Positions 35,701 to 43,660 of a stretch of 64,000 nucleotides of DNA are shown here, piece after piece. How positions within the stretch are numbered: the stretch's first letter is position 1; the number at the start of each line of letters is the position of its first letter. This DNA is from Clostridia bacterium (GTDB lineage: Bacteria; Bacillota; Clostridia; Monoglobales; Monoglobaceae): contig JAFYXL010000025.1 of NCBI GenBank assembly GCA_017546165.1, positions 1 to 64,000 of the forward strand. Reading direction: 5' to 3'. The notes beneath the pieces were generated by a model, which had not been told where the DNA came from, did not search any database, and saw nothing but the letters and a program-made list of their open reading frames with translations. A program made the position numbers and the translations under genes.

Positions 35701-36257
35701 TATTTGTTGTTGATACAGAGGTTTACTCGAATACAGGCGGCCAGGCATCTAAGGCTACACCTACAGCTGCTGTTGCTAAATTCGCAGCTTCAGGTATGAA
35801 GACAAAGAAGAAAGACCTTGGTATGATTGGTACAACTTATGGATACGTTTATGTAGCTCAGATTGCTCTTGGTGCTGATATGAATCAGGCACTCAAGGCT
35901 ATCAAAGAGGCAGAAAGCTATCCTGGTCCATCACTTATCATTGCATATGCGCCTTGTATCAACCATGGTATCAAGACAGGTATGGCAAACACTATTGCAG
36001 AGGAAAAGAAAGCTGTTCAGACAGGTTATTGGCATCTCTGGAGATACAATCCGCTTCTGAAAGCGGAAGGCAAGAACCCATTCATCCTTGATTCAAAAGA
36101 GCCAACAGGCACAATTAAGGAATTCTTAGAGGGCGAAAACCGTTATCTTATGCTTAAGAAAGCATTCCCTGAGGTTGCAGTACAGCTCTTTGACAAGGCT
36201 GAAAAAGACCTTATCGAAAGATACGAGATCTACAAAAAGAAAGCTCAGGAAATTTAA
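32745..36257 (+). CDS. nifJ: Pyruvate:ferredoxin (flavodoxin) oxidoreductase
   Basis: 1170 residues, the single-chain homodimeric form. It oxidises pyruvate to acetyl-CoA and CO2 while reducing ferredoxin, the central anaerobic energy step. Domain I begins MDGNSAAAHCAYAFTEVAAIYPITPSS. Domain V has two ferredoxin-type clusters, CIQCNQCSLVCP (about 687-698) and CLGCGVCAQVCP (about 743-754). Domain VI has the proximal cluster/TPP part with CAGCGETPYIKL, NATGCTSIWGG and the TPP motif GDGWAYDIGYGGLDHV. Codon use is strongly biased, like rpsB and tsf, suggesting high expression. Monocistronic between its promoter and a strong terminator. Confidence 0.97.
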   Translation: MAKKMKTMDGNSAAAHCAYAFTEVAAIYPITPSSNMAENVDQWSADGLKNIFGETVDVVEMQSEAGAAGAVHGSLQAGALTTTFTASQGLLLMIPNMYKIAGELLPTVFHVSARALAAHALNIFGDHQDVMACRQTGFAMLASGSVQETMDLAGVAHLASIKGRVPFLHFFDGFRTSHEIQKVEVMDYEDLKGLLDWDALKAFKDNALNPEHPVLRGTAQNADIYFQGREAANKFYEAIPDIVADYMKEITKITGREYKPFNYYGAPDATKVIVAMGSACEAIEETVDYINARGGKVGVVKVHLYRPFSAKYFFDVIPKTVEKIAVLDRTKEPGSLGEPLYLDVCNLFYGKENAPKIVGGRYGLGSKDTTPTQIMAVFNNLDSDTPKNNFTIGIVDDVTNLSLELPEKINAAPEGTTRCKFWGFGSDGTVGANKDAIKIIGDNTDLYAQAYFDYDSKKSGGVTMSHLRFGKKPIKSTYLLDEADYIACHKPAYLTQYDVLEGLKKGGTFLLNCVWTPEELEEHLPANVKKYLAENEIEFYTINAVDVAVKVGLGPNRINMVTQSAFFKLANVIDFDKAVELIKNAIKKTYGKKGDEIVKMNCDAVDGAIEALVKIDVPASWKDAVDKNVKENNVPDFIKNIVQPVNAQAGNKLPVSTFAGIEDGTFETGTSRYEKRGVAVNVPSWDISKCIQCNQCSLVCPHAAIRPVLLNVDEAAKKPATFETKAATGFAGMEYRIQVSPLDCLGCGVCAQVCPAKEKALTMMPIAEVECEAPNWDFAMTVSSKQDEIDITKSTKNSQFAVPMLEFSGACAGCGETPYIKLITQLFGDRMMVANATGCTSIWGGSAPSMPYCKNAEGKGPAWANSLFEDNAEFGLGMVLANKKIRNTLVSRMNSVMDTVKPELANAFKAWIEGKDNADASKKAAKEITALIKDADMTNPAIKEIADRTDFLIKRSQWVFGGDGWAYDIGYGGLDHVIASGEDINIFVVDTEVYSNTGGQASKATPTAAVAKFAASGMKTKKKDLGMIGTTYGYVYVAQIALGADMNQALKAIKEAESYPGPSLIIAYAPCINHGIKTGMANTIAEEKKAVQTGYWHLWRYNPLLKAEGKNPFILDSKEPTGTIKEFLEGENRYLMLKKAFPEVAVQLFDKAEKDLIERYEIYKKKAQEI

Positions 36258-36266
36258 AGAAAATTT

Positions 36267-36306
36267 AACCCCCAACTCTCGCAAACCGAGAGTTGGGGGT
36301 TTTTTA
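36267..36306 (+). terminator. Terminator of PFOR
   Basis: AACCCCCAACTCTCG and CGAGAGTTGGGGGTT form a 15-bp stem with a 5-nt loop and T-run, the strongest hairpin in the window. Confidence 0.95.
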
Positions 36307-36320
36307 TATATGCTTAAACA

Positions 36321-36527
36321 TTATTTCTCATTAATTTTCCCCATAAGGAAGCGCTTCTCTTTAGTTTTCCTTACAGTTTGCGGAACCACTACTGTTTCGT
36401 CATATATATACATAGCACATTTGTCATTTTTATACATTTCTATATAAGGACAAAAAGGTGCACGGCTGTCTAGTTCAAATGCCTTTCTTCCAGTCTTACA
36501 TCTCATACACAAATTGTTTTTACACAT
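36321..36527 (-). CDS. Small cysteine-rich protein of unknown function
   Basis: 68 residues, starting MCKNNLCMRCKTGRKAFELD at the ATG 36527, which has AAGGAAGTGA six bases upstream; the longer frame to 36584 crosses a stable hairpin and lacks a ribosome site. Cysteines at 2, 7, 10, 25 and 36 (CMRC, CPY, CAMY) could bind a metal or cluster. The C-terminal third is basic. I recognise no family. It is read from the strand of the SLH gene, separated by a hairpin, and converges on PFOR. Confidence 0.6.
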   Translation of the reverse strand: MCKNNLCMRCKTGRKAFELDSRAPFCPYIEMYKNDKCAMYIYDETVVVPQTVRKTKEKRFLMGKINEK

Positions 36528-36551
36528 TGAAGTCACTTCCTTATTTTGTCC

Positions 36552-36582
36552 GGGAGTTGCGGAAAATAATGCCGCAACTCCC
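36552..36582. terminator. Hairpin between the SLH gene and the small Cys-rich gene
   Basis: GGGAGTTGCGG and CCGCAACTCCC form a perfect 11-bp stem with a 9-nt loop. It lacks a T-tract on the minus side, so it may be a leaky terminator after the SLH gene or a processing/stability structure. Confidence 0.5.
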
Positions 36583-36646
36583 ACGGGGGTGTTTTATACA
36601 TTCTTTACACAAATTTAGTGTAAAGTTTGTACCTAATTAAGTTTTA

Positions 36647-39600
36647 CTATTTCTCAAACTTTGTCCAGTCAGGACTGTCTGTTAACTTTATCCATTTCTC
36701 GCAAACACCATCAGCCTTAATTTCATAATTATGACTATTGGTAGCTTCTTGCACCGCAAGATAGTACCAAGCATTCTCGTCACTGTTGTCTTTCCAGGTT
36801 ATCATACCGTCAAGCAAATCTTCTTTGCTTTCAGGCACACGATTAAGCACACGGTTAACAAGTGTCATAACCTCTGCTCTTGTAATGTTATCATCAGGAC
36901 GAAAACTTCCGTTTTCACCAATAATCCATCCAAGATTTGCAGCTGTATTTATATATTCTTTTGCCCAATGGCCGTCAATATCCTTAAAGAAGCTTTCTCC
37001 CTTGTAAACACCGTTTGAAAATCTTGCCGCAATAGTAGTAAACTCTGCTCTGGTAATAAACGCATCAGGTTCAAAAGCTTTTTCCGTTCTGCCGTTCAGA
37101 ATTTCAAGCTGTGTAAGTGTTGAGATTGCGGTGTTATACCACTCATCAGCCGCTACATCACCGAATTCATTTTCCTTTGTCAAACTTTCTTTTCTTACTT
37201 CCTCGGTCAAAAGACGGAAGAAAATTGTTGCCACTTCGGCTCTTGTTGTTTCTGCATTAGGATAAATATATCCTCCGTCACGTCCAAAAATGTACGCACA
37301 GTGTTTATCTGTAAGCATTTGTATCCTATCACTTATATCTTCAACCCACTTAGCATAAATTGTTATATTTTTTATCAATTTTATACTTGTTATCTTGTGA
37401 CTGAGTTCCTTGTCGATATACCAACCCTCAAAGTTGTAACCTTCTTTTTCAGAAACGTAATTTGCTAAATCAACAATGTCATTTTTATTTTTTACAACCT
37501 TGCTTATCGCAGAACCACCGTTTGTATTGAATGTAATAGTATAATTTGTAACGCCCGAACCTCCACCGTACGTTACATTTGCATTCCATTTTGCATAAAC
37601 GGTTTTTGCATCATCGAGAATGACCGACGATATACTTTGTGTTAAACCTGCATCGCTGTACCAACCTGCAAATGTATAACCCGTTTTTTCAGGTCTGTAT
37701 GCCGACAAATCAACAACACTATTTACCTCTTTGTCCGTAACCGAAGGAATCAAATTACCGCCATTTGTTTCAAATGTAAGTGTGTTGTAAACTGCACCGC
37801 CTTCAATATAAATTATAGAATCAATTACTGAATTTGTATCTGCAAGTTTTTCACGTCCGGTAAGATATATACCTGCATTGTCAGTTGAGTTTTGTGCGTT
37901 TATTACTGTGATTTTAGACCCTGCAACAGTGAGCTTATCGCATTCGACTGTATTTTTGATACCATACTCAACACCATCAATGATAATTGTAGAATTTACG
38001 ATGTTTCCTGCTACGTTTCTAAGTGCATTATCATCTAGATTTTTAAGTACAATTGTCGATTCTTCTATATCAAACTCTACTGAAAGAATACCTCGCGTTT
38101 CTGTGCCGTTATTGTCTCCGTCATAAACAAGCTTTGTACCTACTTCCATTGTAAGTTTAGGATTAGCCCCATCACCGTATATAACAGCTGTTGCGTCAAC
38201 ATCTGTAAGGTTAATTTCAGCGGCGTTAACCAGTGTCAATTCACCAGCAGACCCGATCACAACAATTCCCTGGTTTGCAATCACATTTCTACCTACAATC
38301 TTTGCATTATCAAGAGTAAGTTTACCCATTACTGTGAACGGCACAGCATATATCCCTGCTTCATCAACAAAACCACTTGCTGTTGCATCTATATTTGTGA
38401 GATCAATTGTACCGTCCTTGATTATAAAATTCTCATCATTTTCTATTACTATAGCTTTTGTAGGTGTAATTGTATTGCCTAAAAGGTTAATTTCAACAGG
38501 TCCTGTCATTTCTTTTGCTCTATCAAGAGCATTTTCTAATGATGTGTAACATAAACCATCAACGGATGCAGCTATATCACTAACAGGAGGATTGGAATTA
38601 CCCTGTGCATCGAAGGTGATATTCTCAATAGTAATATTGGTCAAGATGCTTGTAGGGTTACCGCCATAAACATATCCCAAAGCATATTCTGCATAGGAAT
38701 TTCCGTACGCACCAATATATGTCTGGATTAGAATATTCTTTGCCACAAGGTTGCTACCTGCAATGGGTTGTGTACCATTGTTGTCTTCAGCCATACCTAC
38801 AATCGAACCAAGACCCCCTGCGGCAGACCTTATTACAAGGCCGTTTCCTGTTCCCTCAACTATGGAGTTTTTAACATTGGTTGTACCTTCGCCTGCATAT
38901 CCAACCATACCGCCTGCACACCAAAAGGTAGAATTGATTGTGCCTTCAGCTTTTACAGAACTGTTGTCTATCACAACATAGCCATGGCCAACAATTCCGC
39001 CAATGTAACCGCGTCCTGAGATATCAATCTTGCCGGTTATATGAACATTGGTAATCTTTGTGCTTGCAAAAGCATTACCTACCACACCACCAACATAATT
39101 GCTGTTATTTGTAGATTTTACTGTAACATTATTAAAAGTAAGATTTTTGATTTCGGCATTGCCTGTTGTGTAAGCAAAGAAACCGAGCCCATTCCCTGTT
39201 GTCTGTACGTTGAGGTTAGAAATCGTATGACCGTTACCGTCAAACACACCCTTGAATGAACCGTGGTCACCTGCCATACTGCCAATAGGGTTCCAATTCT
39301 CGCCAATACCATCGCCATCTTCATCAAGGTCAATATCAGCGTTAAGTTTAATATATTTTCCTGTAAACTGGCTGGCTCCGTCAGATGCCTGTTCATCAAC
39401 CTTATCTCTGAATAACTTCAAATCATCAATATTATTGATTTGATATGGGTCTGCTGCTGTACCTTGACCTATAAGAACTTTTTTAATTCCCAAAGTTTCG
39501 TCACCGTTATCTACTGTTTCAAAAGGAAGACCCTCTGCAACAGAAACGTTTGTTGCCTTGATAGAACTGCTACCATCAATATTAAGAGTTAAATCTGCAC

Positions 39601-40744
39601 CTGCAAAAATACTGAAATCGCGAACATCCTCGATAACAGAGCCATTCTTCAGCGTAACAGATGCTTTGTCATCAATAATAAAGCTGTCCTGTGTATCTGT
39701 TGTTCCAACAACCTTAATAGAGGAATTGTCGAGAGTGAGACCTACGTTTGCGTAATTATCGTCGTCATAAGAATTCTTAAGCAAGAAATACCCGGTTTGG
39801 ATATTTGCATCTTCTGCATAGAATGTGCCGGAATATGCGCCAATATAGTAATCGCAATCAAATTCTATAGTTGAATCATCATCGTCACCGTAGATGTATA
39901 GACCTGCATCTGCAGTTTCATTATAACGCAGAATAGTAGTGCCATCCACATCTATTCTTCCACCATTGTCAACCGTGGTCTTTGCATCATAGCCGTGATA
40001 GAAAGTTTCAGCTACTTCCAAAGTACCCTCAATCGTGTTTACACCATCTGTGTCATAGAAGAGGTTGCCGGCCTTAACAGTAACGCCACTGCCGATATTG
40101 AAATCATTTGCATAAATCCAATCATCATAAGTACTTGTAACAGTAACTCCGCCTTCAACATTTGTGGTTAAAGTACAGCCGTTAAAAGATTCAATAGACT
40201 CGGTTACATCGCGTACAACATTTACTTTGCGGCCGTTAAAATCACCAATAGCTTCATCAAGCGTTTTGTAAGCTACGACACCACCGGTAAATCCCTCTGC
40301 AATGGCAACTATCTTATTAAGATTGTCGGGGCCATTGAAACGAACATCGTTTTCAGCAACCTCAACTCCGTCGGCGAACAGTTTAACCAAAGTGGGGTTC
40401 ATATCATATTTGGGATAGCCCTCTGCCCACTCAACATTCCAGTATTCGTCATTATTTTCACCAAAGTTGATGTTCCATGTAACATATACATCGCCGTTGA
40501 TTATGCCACCAACATCGTTCAATGATGTAGATGCAATCTTTGTTTCACCCTCGTAAAGTTCAACTACTAAACTTTCGGTGGAATTGGATGTAGCCTCACC
40601 CCAGAAACTATTAGCATCTGTATAACAGGGAGTAATAGTTCCGAAATCTTCTGAGGTTTGATCTTCAGCGAAAACATTAAAGTTCATCGTGCCCAATACC
40701 ATTGCAACGCAAAGGATTGAGACTAATACTCTTTTTACCTTCAT
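36647..40744 (-). CDS. Large SLH-anchored surface protein with InlB-type repeats
   Basis: 1365 residues from ATG 40744 (GAAGGA seven bases upstream), which begins with a signal peptide MKVKRVLVSILCVAMVLG ... VFAE. The longer frame to 40873 has a charged N-terminus and is rejected. The body is rich in Asn, Asp, Thr and Gly, with beta-helix-like stretches and GLUG-like segments (VGGVVGNAF, IGGIVGHGY, AGGMVGYAG near residues 590-680). Two Listeria-Bacteroides (InlB B) repeats follow, each ending in GWY ... VYAKW or IYAKW (about 1005-1135). Three SLH domains then anchor it to wall polysaccharide (about 1140-1310; TRAEVAT, TRAEFTT, TRAEVMT). It looks like an adhesin or S-layer-associated protein. 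Its promoter lies in a segment flanked by inverted repeats next to a recombinase gene, so expression is probably phase-variable. Confidence 0.88.
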   Translation of the reverse strand: MKVKRVLVSILCVAMVLGTMNFNVFAEDQTSEDFGTITPCYTDANSFWGEATSNSTESLVVELYEGETKIASTSLNDVGGIINGDVYVTWNINFGENNDEYWNVEWAEGYPKYDMNPTLVKLFADGVEVAENDVRFNGPDNLNKIVAIAEGFTGGVVAYKTLDEAIGDFNGRKVNVVRDVTESIESFNGCTLTTNVEGGVTVTSTYDDWIYANDFNIGSGVTVKAGNLFYDTDGVNTIEGTLEVAETFYHGYDAKTTVDNGGRIDVDGTTILRYNETADAGLYIYGDDDDSTIEFDCDYYIGAYSGTFYAEDANIQTGYFLLKNSYDDDNYANVGLTLDNSSIKVVGTTDTQDSFIIDDKASVTLKNGSVIEDVRDFSIFAGADLTLNIDGSSSIKATNVSVAEGLPFETVDNGDETLGIKKVLIGQGTAADPYQINNIDDLKLFRDKVDEQASDGASQFTGKYIKLNADIDLDEDGDGIGENWNPIGSMAGDHGSFKGVFDGNGHTISNLNVQTTGNGLGFFAYTTGNAEIKNLTFNNVTVKSTNNSNYVGGVVGNAFASTKITNVHITGKIDISGRGYIGGIVGHGYVVIDNSSVKAEGTINSTFWCAGGMVGYAGEGTTNVKNSIVEGTGNGLVIRSAAGGLGSIVGMAEDNNGTQPIAGSNLVAKNILIQTYIGAYGNSYAEYALGYVYGGNPTSILTNITIENITFDAQGNSNPPVSDIAASVDGLCYTSLENALDRAKEMTGPVEINLLGNTITPTKAIVIENDENFIIKDGTIDLTNIDATASGFVDEAGIYAVPFTVMGKLTLDNAKIVGRNVIANQGIVVIGSAGELTLVNAAEINLTDVDATAVIYGDGANPKLTMEVGTKLVYDGDNNGTETRGILSVEFDIEESTIVLKNLDDNALRNVAGNIVNSTIIIDGVEYGIKNTVECDKLTVAGSKITVINAQNSTDNAGIYLTGREKLADTNSVIDSIIYIEGGAVYNTLTFETNGGNLIPSVTDKEVNSVVDLSAYRPEKTGYTFAGWYSDAGLTQSISSVILDDAKTVYAKWNANVTYGGGSGVTNYTITFNTNGGSAISKVVKNKNDIVDLANYVSEKEGYNFEGWYIDKELSHKITSIKLIKNITIYAKWVEDISDRIQMLTDKHCAYIFGRDGGYIYPNAETTRAEVATIFFRLLTEEVRKESLTKENEFGDVAADEWYNTAISTLTQLEILNGRTEKAFEPDAFITRAEFTTIAARFSNGVYKGESFFKDIDGHWAKEYINTAANLGWIIGENGSFRPDDNITRAEVMTLVNRVLNRVPESKEDLLDGMITWKDNSDENAWYYLAVQEATNSHNYEIKADGVCEKWIKLTDSPDWTKFEK

Positions 40745-41006
40745 TCGGAAATCCTTCTTTCTTGTTAATTTTTTTGTGTGCGTCTTCGAATGTGCAGATA
40801 ATTCTCTTTCCCTCCTCTTTTTGCTTTCTACTCTAGTACTGTTCTTTTTAATAGGGTCAATGCCTTTTCCCACGGATAGTTATTTAATAATTATGCTTAC
40901 TAATTAGCCCAAAACTTCACATCTAAATTTGTGAAATGAAAAGAATTCTATTTTTGAAATCTTCCTTTTTAGCAAACCGATTATTTATAATAAAACTAAA
41001 AACACC

Positions 41007-41030
41007 TACCACATAATCTGAATTATGTGG
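41007..41030. repeat. Left inverted repeat (recombination site) of the switch
   Basis: 24 bp built of arms CCACATAAT and ATTATGTGG around the asymmetric core CTGA, preceded by TA. It is identical to the reverse complement of 41320-41343. The outer flank AAACACC (41000-41006) also occurs on the inner side of the right site. Palindromic arms with an asymmetric core are typical of tyrosine recombinase crossover sites. Confidence 0.85.
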
Positions 41031-41066
41031 CAAATGATATAGTTCTTACATAAAATTTATTGAGTC

Positions 41067-41095
41067 ATTTTAACATTGTAATCAACTTTTGTCAA
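41067..41095 (-). promoter_or_regulatory. Switch promoter facing the SLH surface gene
   Basis: TTGACA (41095-41090), 17-nt spacer, TAAAAT (41072-41067) on the minus strand. The transcript would start near 41060, cross the left repeat and have a leader of about 315 nt to the SLH start at 40744. I see no comparable promoter between the left repeat and the gene, so the orientation of the segment should decide expression. Confidence 0.75.
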
Positions 41096-41102
41096 TGTTT
41101 TG

Positions 41103-41131
41103 TGGACAATTATTATAAATTTCATTAGAAT
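41103..41131 (+). promoter_or_regulatory. Weak opposing promoter inside the switch
   Basis: TGGACA, 17-nt spacer, TAGAAT on the plus strand, pointing away from the SLH gene in the present orientation. After inversion it would face the surface gene. Confidence 0.35.
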
Positions 41132-41155
41132 ATAACAAAAAAACATAGCAAAAGA

Positions 41156-41187
41156 AGACCAATGTTATATTTTTTTATCATTGGTCT
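41156..41187 (-). terminator. Hairpin inside the switch
   Basis: AGACCAATG and CATTGGTCT form a 9-bp stem with a 14-nt loop. On the minus strand it is followed by TTCTTTTG, so it may shield the switch promoter from read-through out of the recombinase gene. Confidence 0.5.
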
Positions 41188-41319
41188 AGGAAATTAGTGC
41201 GTTTTTTTAGATGAATATAAAATTTTAGAATTGCACAATAGAATTTAAAAAAATAGTAAAATCAGACTTATTATTTGTGAAATATTAAAAGAATTAAATT
41301 ATAAAAAGTCAAACACCTA

Positions 41320-41343
41320 CCACATAATTCAGATTATGTGGTA
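41320..41343. repeat. Right inverted repeat (recombination site) of the switch
   Basis: Same arms as the left site, but the core reads TCAG, the reverse complement of CTGA, so the two sites are inverted relative to each other. On the plus strand the stem is followed by ATTTTTTATTTT and could act as a terminator for transcription leaving the segment. Confidence 0.85.
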
Positions 41344-41361
41344 TTTTTTATTTTCAAAAAC

Positions 41362-42201
41362 TTAACAGCGTAGCAGACCCAGCTTTTGAATTTGTGCACG
41401 ATGGATTTCCCCTGTTTCCATAGTATAAATCCGTGTTGTGTTTATGCTTGTATGACCCAAAATATCCGCTAGACGCACAATATCTTTTTGAACCGAATAA
41501 AAGGTTCTTGCGAAAAGATGTCTTAAATTATGGGGAAAGACCTTTTCTTTTGCAACGTTAGCACTTTCACAAAGTTTTTTCATAGCTTTCCATACATTGC
41601 TCCTATCGAGAGGACTTCCGTTCCTTGATACAAAAACCGGTCCACTTGAAATCCCAACAGTTTTTGAATATTTCATTAGTGCTTTACACAGCGAACCTGG
41701 GATTATCACAACTCTCATTTTACCTTTCAGATTTATATTTGCACGCATCTTTACAAGAGCTTCAACCGTTATAAACTTAAGTTCTGATATTCTGATTCCG
41801 CAGGCACAAATTGTTTGCATAAGCAAATACAACTTTTGATTGCCTTTGTTTTTTGCAGCAGTTAAAAGTCTTTCATACTCCGCTTTAGTAATCTCCTTGT
41901 CACGACTGGCAAAAATCTGACGTTGGATTTTGAGAGTTCTGACTCGTAGGTTATGCCACTCATTATACACAAAAAAACTGTTTAACGATGAAATAATTGA
42001 ATTTACACTTGCAGGGGCAAAATTCTCAATCAAGTGTTGTTTGTAGTCTAAAACAAGTGATTTATCTACCTCGCAATTGCCCACCCACTTTGAAAACACA
42101 TATATATCGTGTATATATTTTTCGATAGTCGCAACTGACTTTTCTTCATTGATTAGGTGAACTCTGTATTTTTCTATTAGACTTTCGGTGATTCGTGTCA
42201 T
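41362..42201 (-). CDS. Tyrosine site-specific recombinase
   Basis: 279 residues with an N-terminal SAM-like core-binding domain (about 5-90) and a catalytic domain (about 105-279). All catalytic residues are visible: Arg137 in CGIRISEL, Lys159 or Lys161 in NLKGKMR, His224 and Arg227 in HNLRHLF, His250 in GHTSINTTR and the nucleophile Tyr259 in IYTMET. The start follows AAAGGAG. Size and domain plan are those of stand-alone Xer/RecV-like integrases. No phage, integron or transposon genes surround it; its neighbour is the repeat-flanked promoter segment, so it probably acts there as the invertase. Whether it also recombines distant sites is unknown. Confidence 0.92.
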   Translation of the reverse strand: MTRITESLIEKYRVHLINEEKSVATIEKYIHDIYVFSKWVGNCEVDKSLVLDYKQHLIENFAPASVNSIISSLNSFFVYNEWHNLRVRTLKIQRQIFASRDKEITKAEYERLLTAAKNKGNQKLYLLMQTICACGIRISELKFITVEALVKMRANINLKGKMRVVIIPGSLCKALMKYSKTVGISSGPVFVSRNGSPLDRSNVWKAMKKLCESANVAKEKVFPHNLRHLFARTFYSVQKDIVRLADILGHTSINTTRIYTMETGEIHRAQIQKLGLLRC

Positions 42202-42283
42202 ACAATAACAACTCCTTTCTATATTAGTATCGTAATTTAAGGATAATAATATTCAAAGGATTTGTCAAGACCCTTGAAAGGTT

Positions 42284-43561
42284 TTATTGTCCTACATCAA
42301 ACATATAATCAAGGAGTGACCAGTTTTGCTGGAATGGTCTCATTAAGTTCCAATATCCTGCTCCCCGCAAACCTTTTTCGTTTATGAGATTAAACTTTTG
42401 CTGTATGCTGCGGACATCTTCAAACCATACTTCATGTACTCTGCCTTGATTATCCGTATATCTGAACCAGGGCGATTGCGAAACTTCATCAAATTGTATT
42501 TCCGCACCGTTTGAAGCCGCAATCTGTATGGCTTCTACATTTGAAATGGAATCCGCCCTTGATTCACCCTTTACATAAGGAAGTGTCCAGTCATAACCAT
42601 AGTTGGGTATGCCCAAAAAAATCTTTTCAGGCGGTATAATTGTGAGTGCATAATCCACCACTTGACGAACATTTCTGATTGGCGCAACAGCTAAAGGCGG
42701 CCCGTAAGTATATCCCCATTCATATGTCATAAGCAGTACTGCATCTGCATTGTCACCTATTGCACGATAATTATGTCCCTCATACAAAAGTCCCCTTTGA
42801 GTATCAGAGGTCTTTGGTGCAAGGGCAGCAATAACCTCATAACCAAGAGGATTTAATGCCGCCCTCAATTTCCCTACGAATTCTCCATACAAAAGGCTGT
42901 CTTCGGGATATACAAACTCAAAATCAATGTCTAGTCCCCGGTAGCCTTTTTGCTCCATATTAGCAATTATTTCATCAATCAGAGTTTCTTGAATGTCAGG
43001 ATTATTAAGAACCAAACTGGCAAGTTCATTACTAAAACCGCCGCTTTCTGTTAATGTTGATAAGTGCATAAGGGGCAAAACCCCATAATTTAATGATATA
43101 TCAATCAGTTCCTCGTCATCAAGCTGGACAAGATTTCCCTCGTTGGTTATTCCATATGTAAACGGTGTCATATAATTTATGTAAGGAAGTGTTTTCCGTA
43201 GCAGATTTTTATCAATATATGGATATGCATATCCATTTACGTCTATTGCCCCATTGGGTTCACGTTCAAACTCAATTATCAGCGTCTGACCCGGATATAC
43301 AAGGGGTCTGCCACCAAGATTAGGATTGTTGCGGTAAATTCTGTTAAGGTCAATTCCATATCTCTGCGCGATTGAGAACAATGTTTCATTTGCCTGTACG
43401 GTATGGTATCTTAAAGGTCTTAAGATAAGCAACGCCTGACCTACTACCAGGTTTGAAATTTCATCAAGATTATTAAGTGCTTTCAAAACAAATGTTGGTA
43501 TATTATATTGCTGAGCAATACTCTCTTGGGTATCTCCTGATTTAACAATATAGATTTCCAT
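42284..43561 (-). CDS. sleL: Spore cortex-lytic enzyme, LysM-GH18 (SleL/YaaH type)
   Basis: 425 residues: two LysM domains (about 1-47 and 51-96, starting IYIVKSGDTQESIAQQYNI and YHTVQANETLFSIAQRYGI), then a glycoside hydrolase 18 barrel with the catalytic motif GLDIDFE (Glu215). There is no signal peptide, as in YaaH/SleL proteins that are made in the mother cell and load onto the spore coat or cortex. These N-acetylglucosaminidases degrade cortex fragments at germination. The gene is isolated, downstream of nothing obvious and followed by the recombinase gene. Confidence 0.9.
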   Translation of the reverse strand: MEIYIVKSGDTQESIAQQYNIPTFVLKALNNLDEISNLVVGQALLILRPLRYHTVQANETLFSIAQRYGIDLNRIYRNNPNLGGRPLVYPGQTLIIEFEREPNGAIDVNGYAYPYIDKNLLRKTLPYINYMTPFTYGITNEGNLVQLDDEELIDISLNYGVLPLMHLSTLTESGGFSNELASLVLNNPDIQETLIDEIIANMEQKGYRGLDIDFEFVYPEDSLLYGEFVGKLRAALNPLGYEVIAALAPKTSDTQRGLLYEGHNYRAIGDNADAVLLMTYEWGYTYGPPLAVAPIRNVRQVVDYALTIIPPEKIFLGIPNYGYDWTLPYVKGESRADSISNVEAIQIAASNGAEIQFDEVSQSPWFRYTDNQGRVHEVWFEDVRSIQQKFNLINEKGLRGAGYWNLMRPFQQNWSLLDYMFDVGQ

Positions 43562-43660
43562 ACTTGCACCTCCATTTATATAGTATATTATGCAAATAAA
43601 AAAATGCCACCCTGATATAAATACACATAATGAAAGCTAAACATAACCTTTGAATATATA

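Follow-up and report, generated by a model that had tools for sequence, protein, structure and literature searches.

An apparent invertible promoter with an adjacent Xer-like recombinase at an SLH surface protein gene belongs to a clostridial switch family with matched, variable cores and helically phased segment lengths

In the 64,000-nucleotide stretch of DNA from a gut Clostridia bacterium analyzed here (hereafter the window), a gene for an SLH surface protein is preceded by a short segment bounded by inverted repeats and adjoined by a recombinase gene, which raises the question of whether this segment is a promoter switch that can flip and, if so, what governs its recombination. The repeat at 41007-41030 (TACCACATAATCTGAATTATGTGG) is the exact reverse complement of that at 41320-41343, and the two enclose a putative invertible segment of 289 bp (41031-41319; 311 bp core to core). 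Each 24-bp repeat is itself palindromic, with 9-bp arms around a 4-bp core: the left, gene-side site reads TACCACATAAT-CTGA-ATTATGTGG (core 41018-41021) and the right, recombinase-side site CCACATAAT-TCAG-ATTATGTGGTA (core 41329-41332). The left palindrome is also given as CCACATAAT-CTGA-ATTATGTGG. Because the repeats are palindromic, orientation is carried by the core, and the two cores agree in the inverted alignment only. The first-pass annotation had described both the identical inverted repeats around 289 bp and the cores that pair only when inverted, and the window sequence bears it out on each point. A pattern built from the arms alone matches the whole window twice, against 0.06 matches expected by chance.

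That annotation had also placed a TTGACA-17-TAAAAT promoter inside the segment, aimed at the SLH gene. It is indeed there (41067-41095, minus strand), called by its consensus score of 11/12 and with a TG ahead of the -10, which stops 36 bp short of the left site, a spacing shared by many relatives. The gene it points at (36647-40744, minus strand; predicted ON state) encodes a 1365-residue protein that appears to have a signal peptide and contains List-Bact repeats, with SLH domains at its C terminus, and a consensus scan found no second promoter-like site on the minus strand in the 5′ leader (40745-41006) between the left site and the SLH start. A dyad, AGACCAATG-N14-CATTGGTCT (41156-41187), lies 60 bp upstream of the -35; dyads at about this distance recur in about half of the family segments described below and show compensatory, paired changes (for example AGACCGATG/CATCGGTCT). 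We considered the dyad as a simple terminator and rejected this, as its T-run is weak and present in one direction only.

On the other side of the segment lies an intact gene for a Xer-like tyrosine recombinase (41362-42201, minus strand; 279 amino acids), separated from the right repeat by an 18-bp gap, so that its stop codon ends 19 bp past the repeat, as originally noted. All six catalytic residues are present, again as first proposed, and R137, K161, H224, R227, H250 and Y259 are invariant among 11 family sequences. The protein matches Pfam PF00589 (Phage_integrase; E 1.2e-25) and scores below the cut-off of every NCBIfam Xer equivalog (best XerA_Arch, 125.7 against 220; XerD, 114.8 against 329.6), which places it outside XerC, XerD and XerA as defined there. 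Phage and plasmid collections yielded only relatives at ~51% identity or less.

Although the first-pass annotation was right to read a switch here, it treated as a single case what proves to be one member of a family of 124 loci (118 non-redundant). Relatives were drawn from 60 related genomes (19 positive) and 25 viral contigs, from named genomes (80 loci), for the most part Clostridia MAGs of ruminant and gut origin, and from 392 well-assembled genomes of the class, 40 of which carry the recombinase. The family site is CCACATAA-TNNNNA-TTATGTGG, with the ATAA-6 bp-TTAT layout of Xer dif sites and a free 4-bp core: most arm positions carry 1.4-1.9 bits of information and the four core positions 0.04-0.32 bits. 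The window locus has such a pair, with an inverted-identical core, directly after its recombinase gene; where enough downstream sequence is available, the pair mostly follows the recombinase within 0 to about 110 bp. In an arms-only census of 110 loci, 74 had two sites, 11 three or more, 10 one and 15 none at the stringency used, several of the one-site and no-site loci being contig ends or distant homologues. The genes behind the switches are varied, and include those for SLH, cohesin/dockerin, collagen-like, BspA, SPFH, TetR, Rrf2 and GGDEF proteins as well as an acyltransferase, an Hsp70-like protein, a helicase and TIR proteins.

When sites are located by their arms alone, which avoids biasing a test of the cores, the cores are inverted-identical in all 74 two-site loci, with none direct-identical and none different, whereas shuffling gave a mean of 2.1 and a maximum of 10 (10,000 shuffles). 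This result also upholds the earlier argument that the core mismatch in direct alignment favours inversion over deletion. Across the larger set, a matched pair occurs in 124 loci and a mismatched pair of good sites in none. The cores themselves are diverse, with 55 distinct sequences (strand-collapsed) among the 118 non-redundant loci, and self-complementary cores are absent (0/118 against 6.4 expected, P = 0.0014). Recombinases that are 91-95% identical use different cores (CGTG and CGAC, for example), each pair still matched, so it seems that the enzyme needs its partner cores to agree but not to have a particular sequence. The Acinetobacter pXerC/D spacers are reported to behave in this way: reversible recombination was observed only when both sites had the same centre (PMC9947245). 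A separate idea, that cores are selected to differ between the switches of one genome, was set aside as unproven. Of 34 pairs of loci within single genomes, two have a core in common (TCTG at L194/L196, TCGC at L064/L071), where 0.7 would be expected.

The genome to which the window belongs (assembly of 1.34 Mb, 88% complete) contains exactly three exact site pairs, with cores CTGA, ATGG and CGTG that each match only when inverted, and each pair lies directly behind its own recombinase, the two paralogues being 65-69% identical to that of the window. One paralogous switch is followed by a BspA/cohesin surface protein and then an SLH protein, and the other by a protein, cut by the contig end, that is identified as SPFH by its similarity to the corresponding proteins at L059 and L115. 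The window promoter faces away from its recombinase (ON), those of the other two switches toward theirs (OFF), so that one genome appears to display the architecture in both states. A global alignment of the window segment with the two paralogues is only weakly better when flipped, which leaves promoter direction and the dyad as the basis of this comparison. Other genomes provide more convincing flipped pairs. A comparison of homologous loci, as the first-pass annotation had proposed, identified three orthologous pairs from different genomes (L017/L043, L106/L111 and L117/L128) in which homologous recombinases and downstream DNA accompany segments in opposite orientation. At L017/L043, which has a TetR-like gene downstream, the left site has the same outer halves in both orthologues, whereas the inner halves, TGTGG and TGTTG, have changed places between the two sites, which indicates a crossover inside the core. 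Promoter positions, called by consensus scores on which these orientation assignments depend, class 78 of the 118 loci as OFF and 24 as ON, the window being in the ON minority.

The lengths of the segments carry a further signature. Core-to-core distances range from 147 to 534 bp across the family (usually 209-305) and cluster at 219-222, 229-231, 239-243, 248-252, 260-264, 270-275 bp and so on; when periods from 6 to 20 bp are scanned, the strongest signal is at 10.45 bp (R = 0.62, Rayleigh p ~3e-20, n = 118), whereas jittered distances reach R of at most 0.35. The periodicity is present separately in loci above and below 55% identity, and in 46 disjoint nearest-relative pairs, a contrast that reduces shared ancestry without fully removing it, length differences tend towards whole turns (mean cosine 0.51, z = 4.9). 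Control distances are not comparably phased (recombinase to site, R 0.27; site to gene, R 0.11). The spacing from the -10 to the site is also quantized, with clusters near 24, 35 and 46 bp, as expected if only whole-turn insertions and deletions survive. The simplest reading of these distances is that the short segment is bent into a loop at synapsis, and that this twist-sensitive loop needs both sites on the same helix face.

Against this grid the window segment is unusual. Most of the 124 loci depart from the 10.45-bp grid by no more than about 2.5 bp, which is a tendency rather than a strict criterion, whereas the window distance of 311 bp sits 2.8 bp off (offset -2.8) and those of its paralogues, 230 and 251 bp, within 0.2 bp. 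Being off the preferred phase, the window switch may flip slowly. A stronger version of this idea is that a formerly active switch is now locked ON, the segment being out of helical phase or the recombinase silent; the contrast with the paralogues, and the fact that neither of them has so long a segment, would both fit. We nevertheless consider this unlikely, since the recombinase is intact, all 24 bp of the repeats still agree, twist is better tolerated in longer loops and other family members are off phase too. A functional, possibly slow switch is the reading we prefer, and 41007-41343 is very probably an invertible promoter with its own adjacent recombinase. Here the argument is comparative, with activity and SLH transcription inferred, and the earlier proposal of an ON-state phase switch draws strong support from the paralogues, the flipped orthologues, core matching and length quantization.

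The two sites also look as though they act on transcripts. Directly past the right site the plus strand reads TTTTTT, forming a terminator-like element (41318-41343) toward the recombinase gene, and among closer relatives a T-run lies outside the recombinase-side site, in the direction of the OFF transcript, in 72% of cases, against 15% on the gene side and 1-3% inside. Since the T-run follows it, the recombinase-side site probably doubles as a terminator-like element that ends OFF transcripts before they run antisense through the recombinase. The gene-side site is likewise a hairpin followed by several T, near the 5′ end of the SLH leader in the ON state; this hairpin folds better than shuffled sequences, and it is possible that it partially attenuates the ON transcript. 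No Rfam family was found in 36200-43600.

These features bear on three further explanations. Inversion could be real but have the recombinase or the antisense side, and not the SLH gene, as its main target, given that the opposite orientation aims the promoter at the 3′ end of the recombinase gene; the T-run just past the recombinase-side site would stop such a transcript, however, and many relatives have secreted or surface genes directly past the gene-side site, which makes this highly improbable. We give still less credence to the palindromes being no more than intrinsic terminators on either side of an SLH promoter of fixed orientation, with the integrase gene unrelated: both do score as terminator-like with T-runs, and the leader hairpin outfolds its shuffles, but terminators need neither shared arms nor matched private cores, and in 124 loci these arms lie next to a member of this recombinase family, with cores that match perfectly, spacing that follows the helix and segments in both orientations. 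Equally hard to credit is a role in integration or excision, whether the sites act as direct repeats in a deletion or are remnants of att sites, for although tyrosine recombinases frequently excise and the window sites align directly over 44 nt at 80% identity with AACACCTA on the same side of both, that alignment mismatches the cores (CTGA against TCAG), none of the 74 two-site loci has a direct-identical pair, and orthologues retain the segment, flipped.

Promoter inversion, the favoured explanation, would proceed as follows. The adjacent Xer-like recombinase would bind the CCACATAA and TTATGTGG arms of both sites, the short segment would loop so that the sites pair facing each other on the helix, and strand exchange would take place within the central 6 bp (T-NNNN-A), where the partners would need only to be identical; the asymmetry of the core would then fix the outcome as inversion. 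In the present orientation transcription from the promoter would cross the left site and enter the SLH gene (ON), and after inversion the promoter would face the recombinase gene, where the recombinase-side hairpin and U-tract would stop the transcript (OFF).

The fim switch of E. coli employs two recombinases together with host factors. Its fimS element is a 314-bp invertible promoter segment, flipped by a linked tyrosine recombinase, that controls a surface structure (PMC9993118). The window shares this arrangement, with a consensus promoter inside a short segment bounded by inverted recombination sites, a linked tyrosine recombinase and a surface protein, so that fimS with FimB/FimE is a better analogy than CwpV; the site sequence and the recombinases differ, and the window family has one recombinase per locus. 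The first-pass annotation had offered CwpV as its example of promoter inversion, which does not fit that system: in C. difficile, the tyrosine recombinase RecV inverts about 200 bp upstream of the gene for a large surface protein, with the promoter outside the inverting segment, OFF set by a terminator, and recV unlinked (PMC2784873). Both systems are clostridial and pair a tyrosine recombinase with a large surface protein, but in the window the promoter is inside the segment and the recombinase 18 bp away, so that the locus is not of the RecV/CwpV type. XerCD/dif and Acinetobacter pXerC/D resemble the window family in having arms around a 6-bp centre and, for the latter, in reversible recombination observed only where the centres are identical (PMC9947245), and the window recombinase is Xer-like; the family differs in its single recombinase, near-symmetric arms and apparent purpose of promoter inversion. 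A record annotated psrA is 30% identical to the window recombinase, and PsrA of Streptococcus, likewise a tyrosine DNA invertase, inverts hsdS gene parts between 15-bp repeats (PMC7096588) rather than a promoter.

A published group, inverton group 139 (with invertase group 35), may include the window family. According to the passages on it, this group comprises 33 invertons, 32 of them from Clostridia, with a tyrosine-type recombinase nearby and orientation shifts measured in culture, and from the two coordinate sets printed there the centre-to-centre distances are 231 and 241 bp, each no more than 0.8 bp away from a preferred length (PMC11892184). The agreement with that material concerns lengths and recombinase linkage. 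Those passages make no mention of core variability or length quantization (PMC11892184), a search that covered few subscription journals found no literature linking helical phasing with such switches, and the family motif, searched as text, returned no relevant paper among the matches listed. Core variability and helical quantization thus look undescribed in the literature searched. The mechanism itself is known; what would be new, at the level of the family and as judged from sequence, are the free but matched core, the helical quantization and the dual use of the site.

What began as a single suspected switch thus becomes a family with more than 100 members in Clostridia of the gut and rumen, where the switches accompany surface proteins, regulators, an Hsp70-like protein and a TIR effector. 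Tentatively, and with rather less than even confidence, we suggest that these are widespread gut-Clostridia cassettes of recombinase, promoter segment and interchangeable gene, in which partner choice would depend only on a drifting, self-matched 4-bp core and length would be tuned in whole turns, twist setting the flip rate and the window being a slow, out-of-phase variant. If so, natural segment lengths would predict switching rates and natural cores would be a ready set of mutually exclusive sites. The quantized lengths look like a comparative trace of synapsis in vivo, making the role of twist in inversion rate directly testable, and the matched free cores reveal bases that the enzyme apparently need not read, offering natural orthogonal sites for genetic engineering. 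The genomic context of the window locus suits a self-contained cassette that brings or captures genes, given the varied genes behind the switch elsewhere and its absence from congeners: in four of these (G002, G005, G006 and G008) the LysM-GH18 gene adjoins the PFOR gene directly, with neither SLH gene nor recombinase between them, whereas in the window the two are separated by ~5.7 kb (approximately 36585-42283) holding the SLH gene, the switch and the recombinase.

The 4-bp core enclosed by the conserved arms of the recombination sites varies freely, and when the recombinase-proximal sites are compared across the 118 non-redundant loci of the family, one end of it proves to be biased. The first base of the core, on the outer side of this site, is a pyrimidine in 99 loci, and the opposite end of the core is almost without base bias. 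This preference possibly reflects the order of strand cleavage. Some loci (L015, L022, L024, L043, L066, L069, L087, L089, L099, L119, L200, L205, L208, L212, L214 and L224) have, on one side, a further site or two in tandem that share the core, usually spaced 32-46 bp from the first.

Both sites of the window are preceded by AACACCTA in direct orientation (41000-41030 and 41311-41341), an arrangement that was not found in the two paralogous switches of the same genome. Inversion would turn the gene-side site of the window into a perfect palindrome with 17-bp arms. The contig carrying the third switch (C52 of genome G000) ends 122 bp beyond it, within its downstream gene (L006, 9574), and the assembly may have broken there because the orientation of the switch could not be resolved.

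The same recombinase and switch are also present on viral contigs (L115-L129), three of which (L116, L117 and L128) have a similar gene (MRIQIDKIKVSPGRREALPEH...) approximately 800 bp downstream. Elsewhere, the switch adjoins a TIR protein of the CAP12/Pycsar effector type (L062, 6266-7810) or a helicase with eight helicase-associated domains (L036, 7139-10054), possibly representing phase-variable defence.

A more distant branch, 41-43% identical, comprises at least six recombinases in genome G286 (L220-L223); its site reads GACATTAT-TGAT-ATAATGTC, with the same core common to three copies. At L230 (G001, C11, 2900-5900), two different family recombinase genes, both C-terminally truncated, converge head-on with an overlap of a few bases, which represents either an inversion scar or an assembly error. 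At L007, a dif-like palindrome, TTGCACATAATAAAAATTATGTGCAA (2668-2693), lies immediately 5' of the start codon of a XerC/D-like gene.
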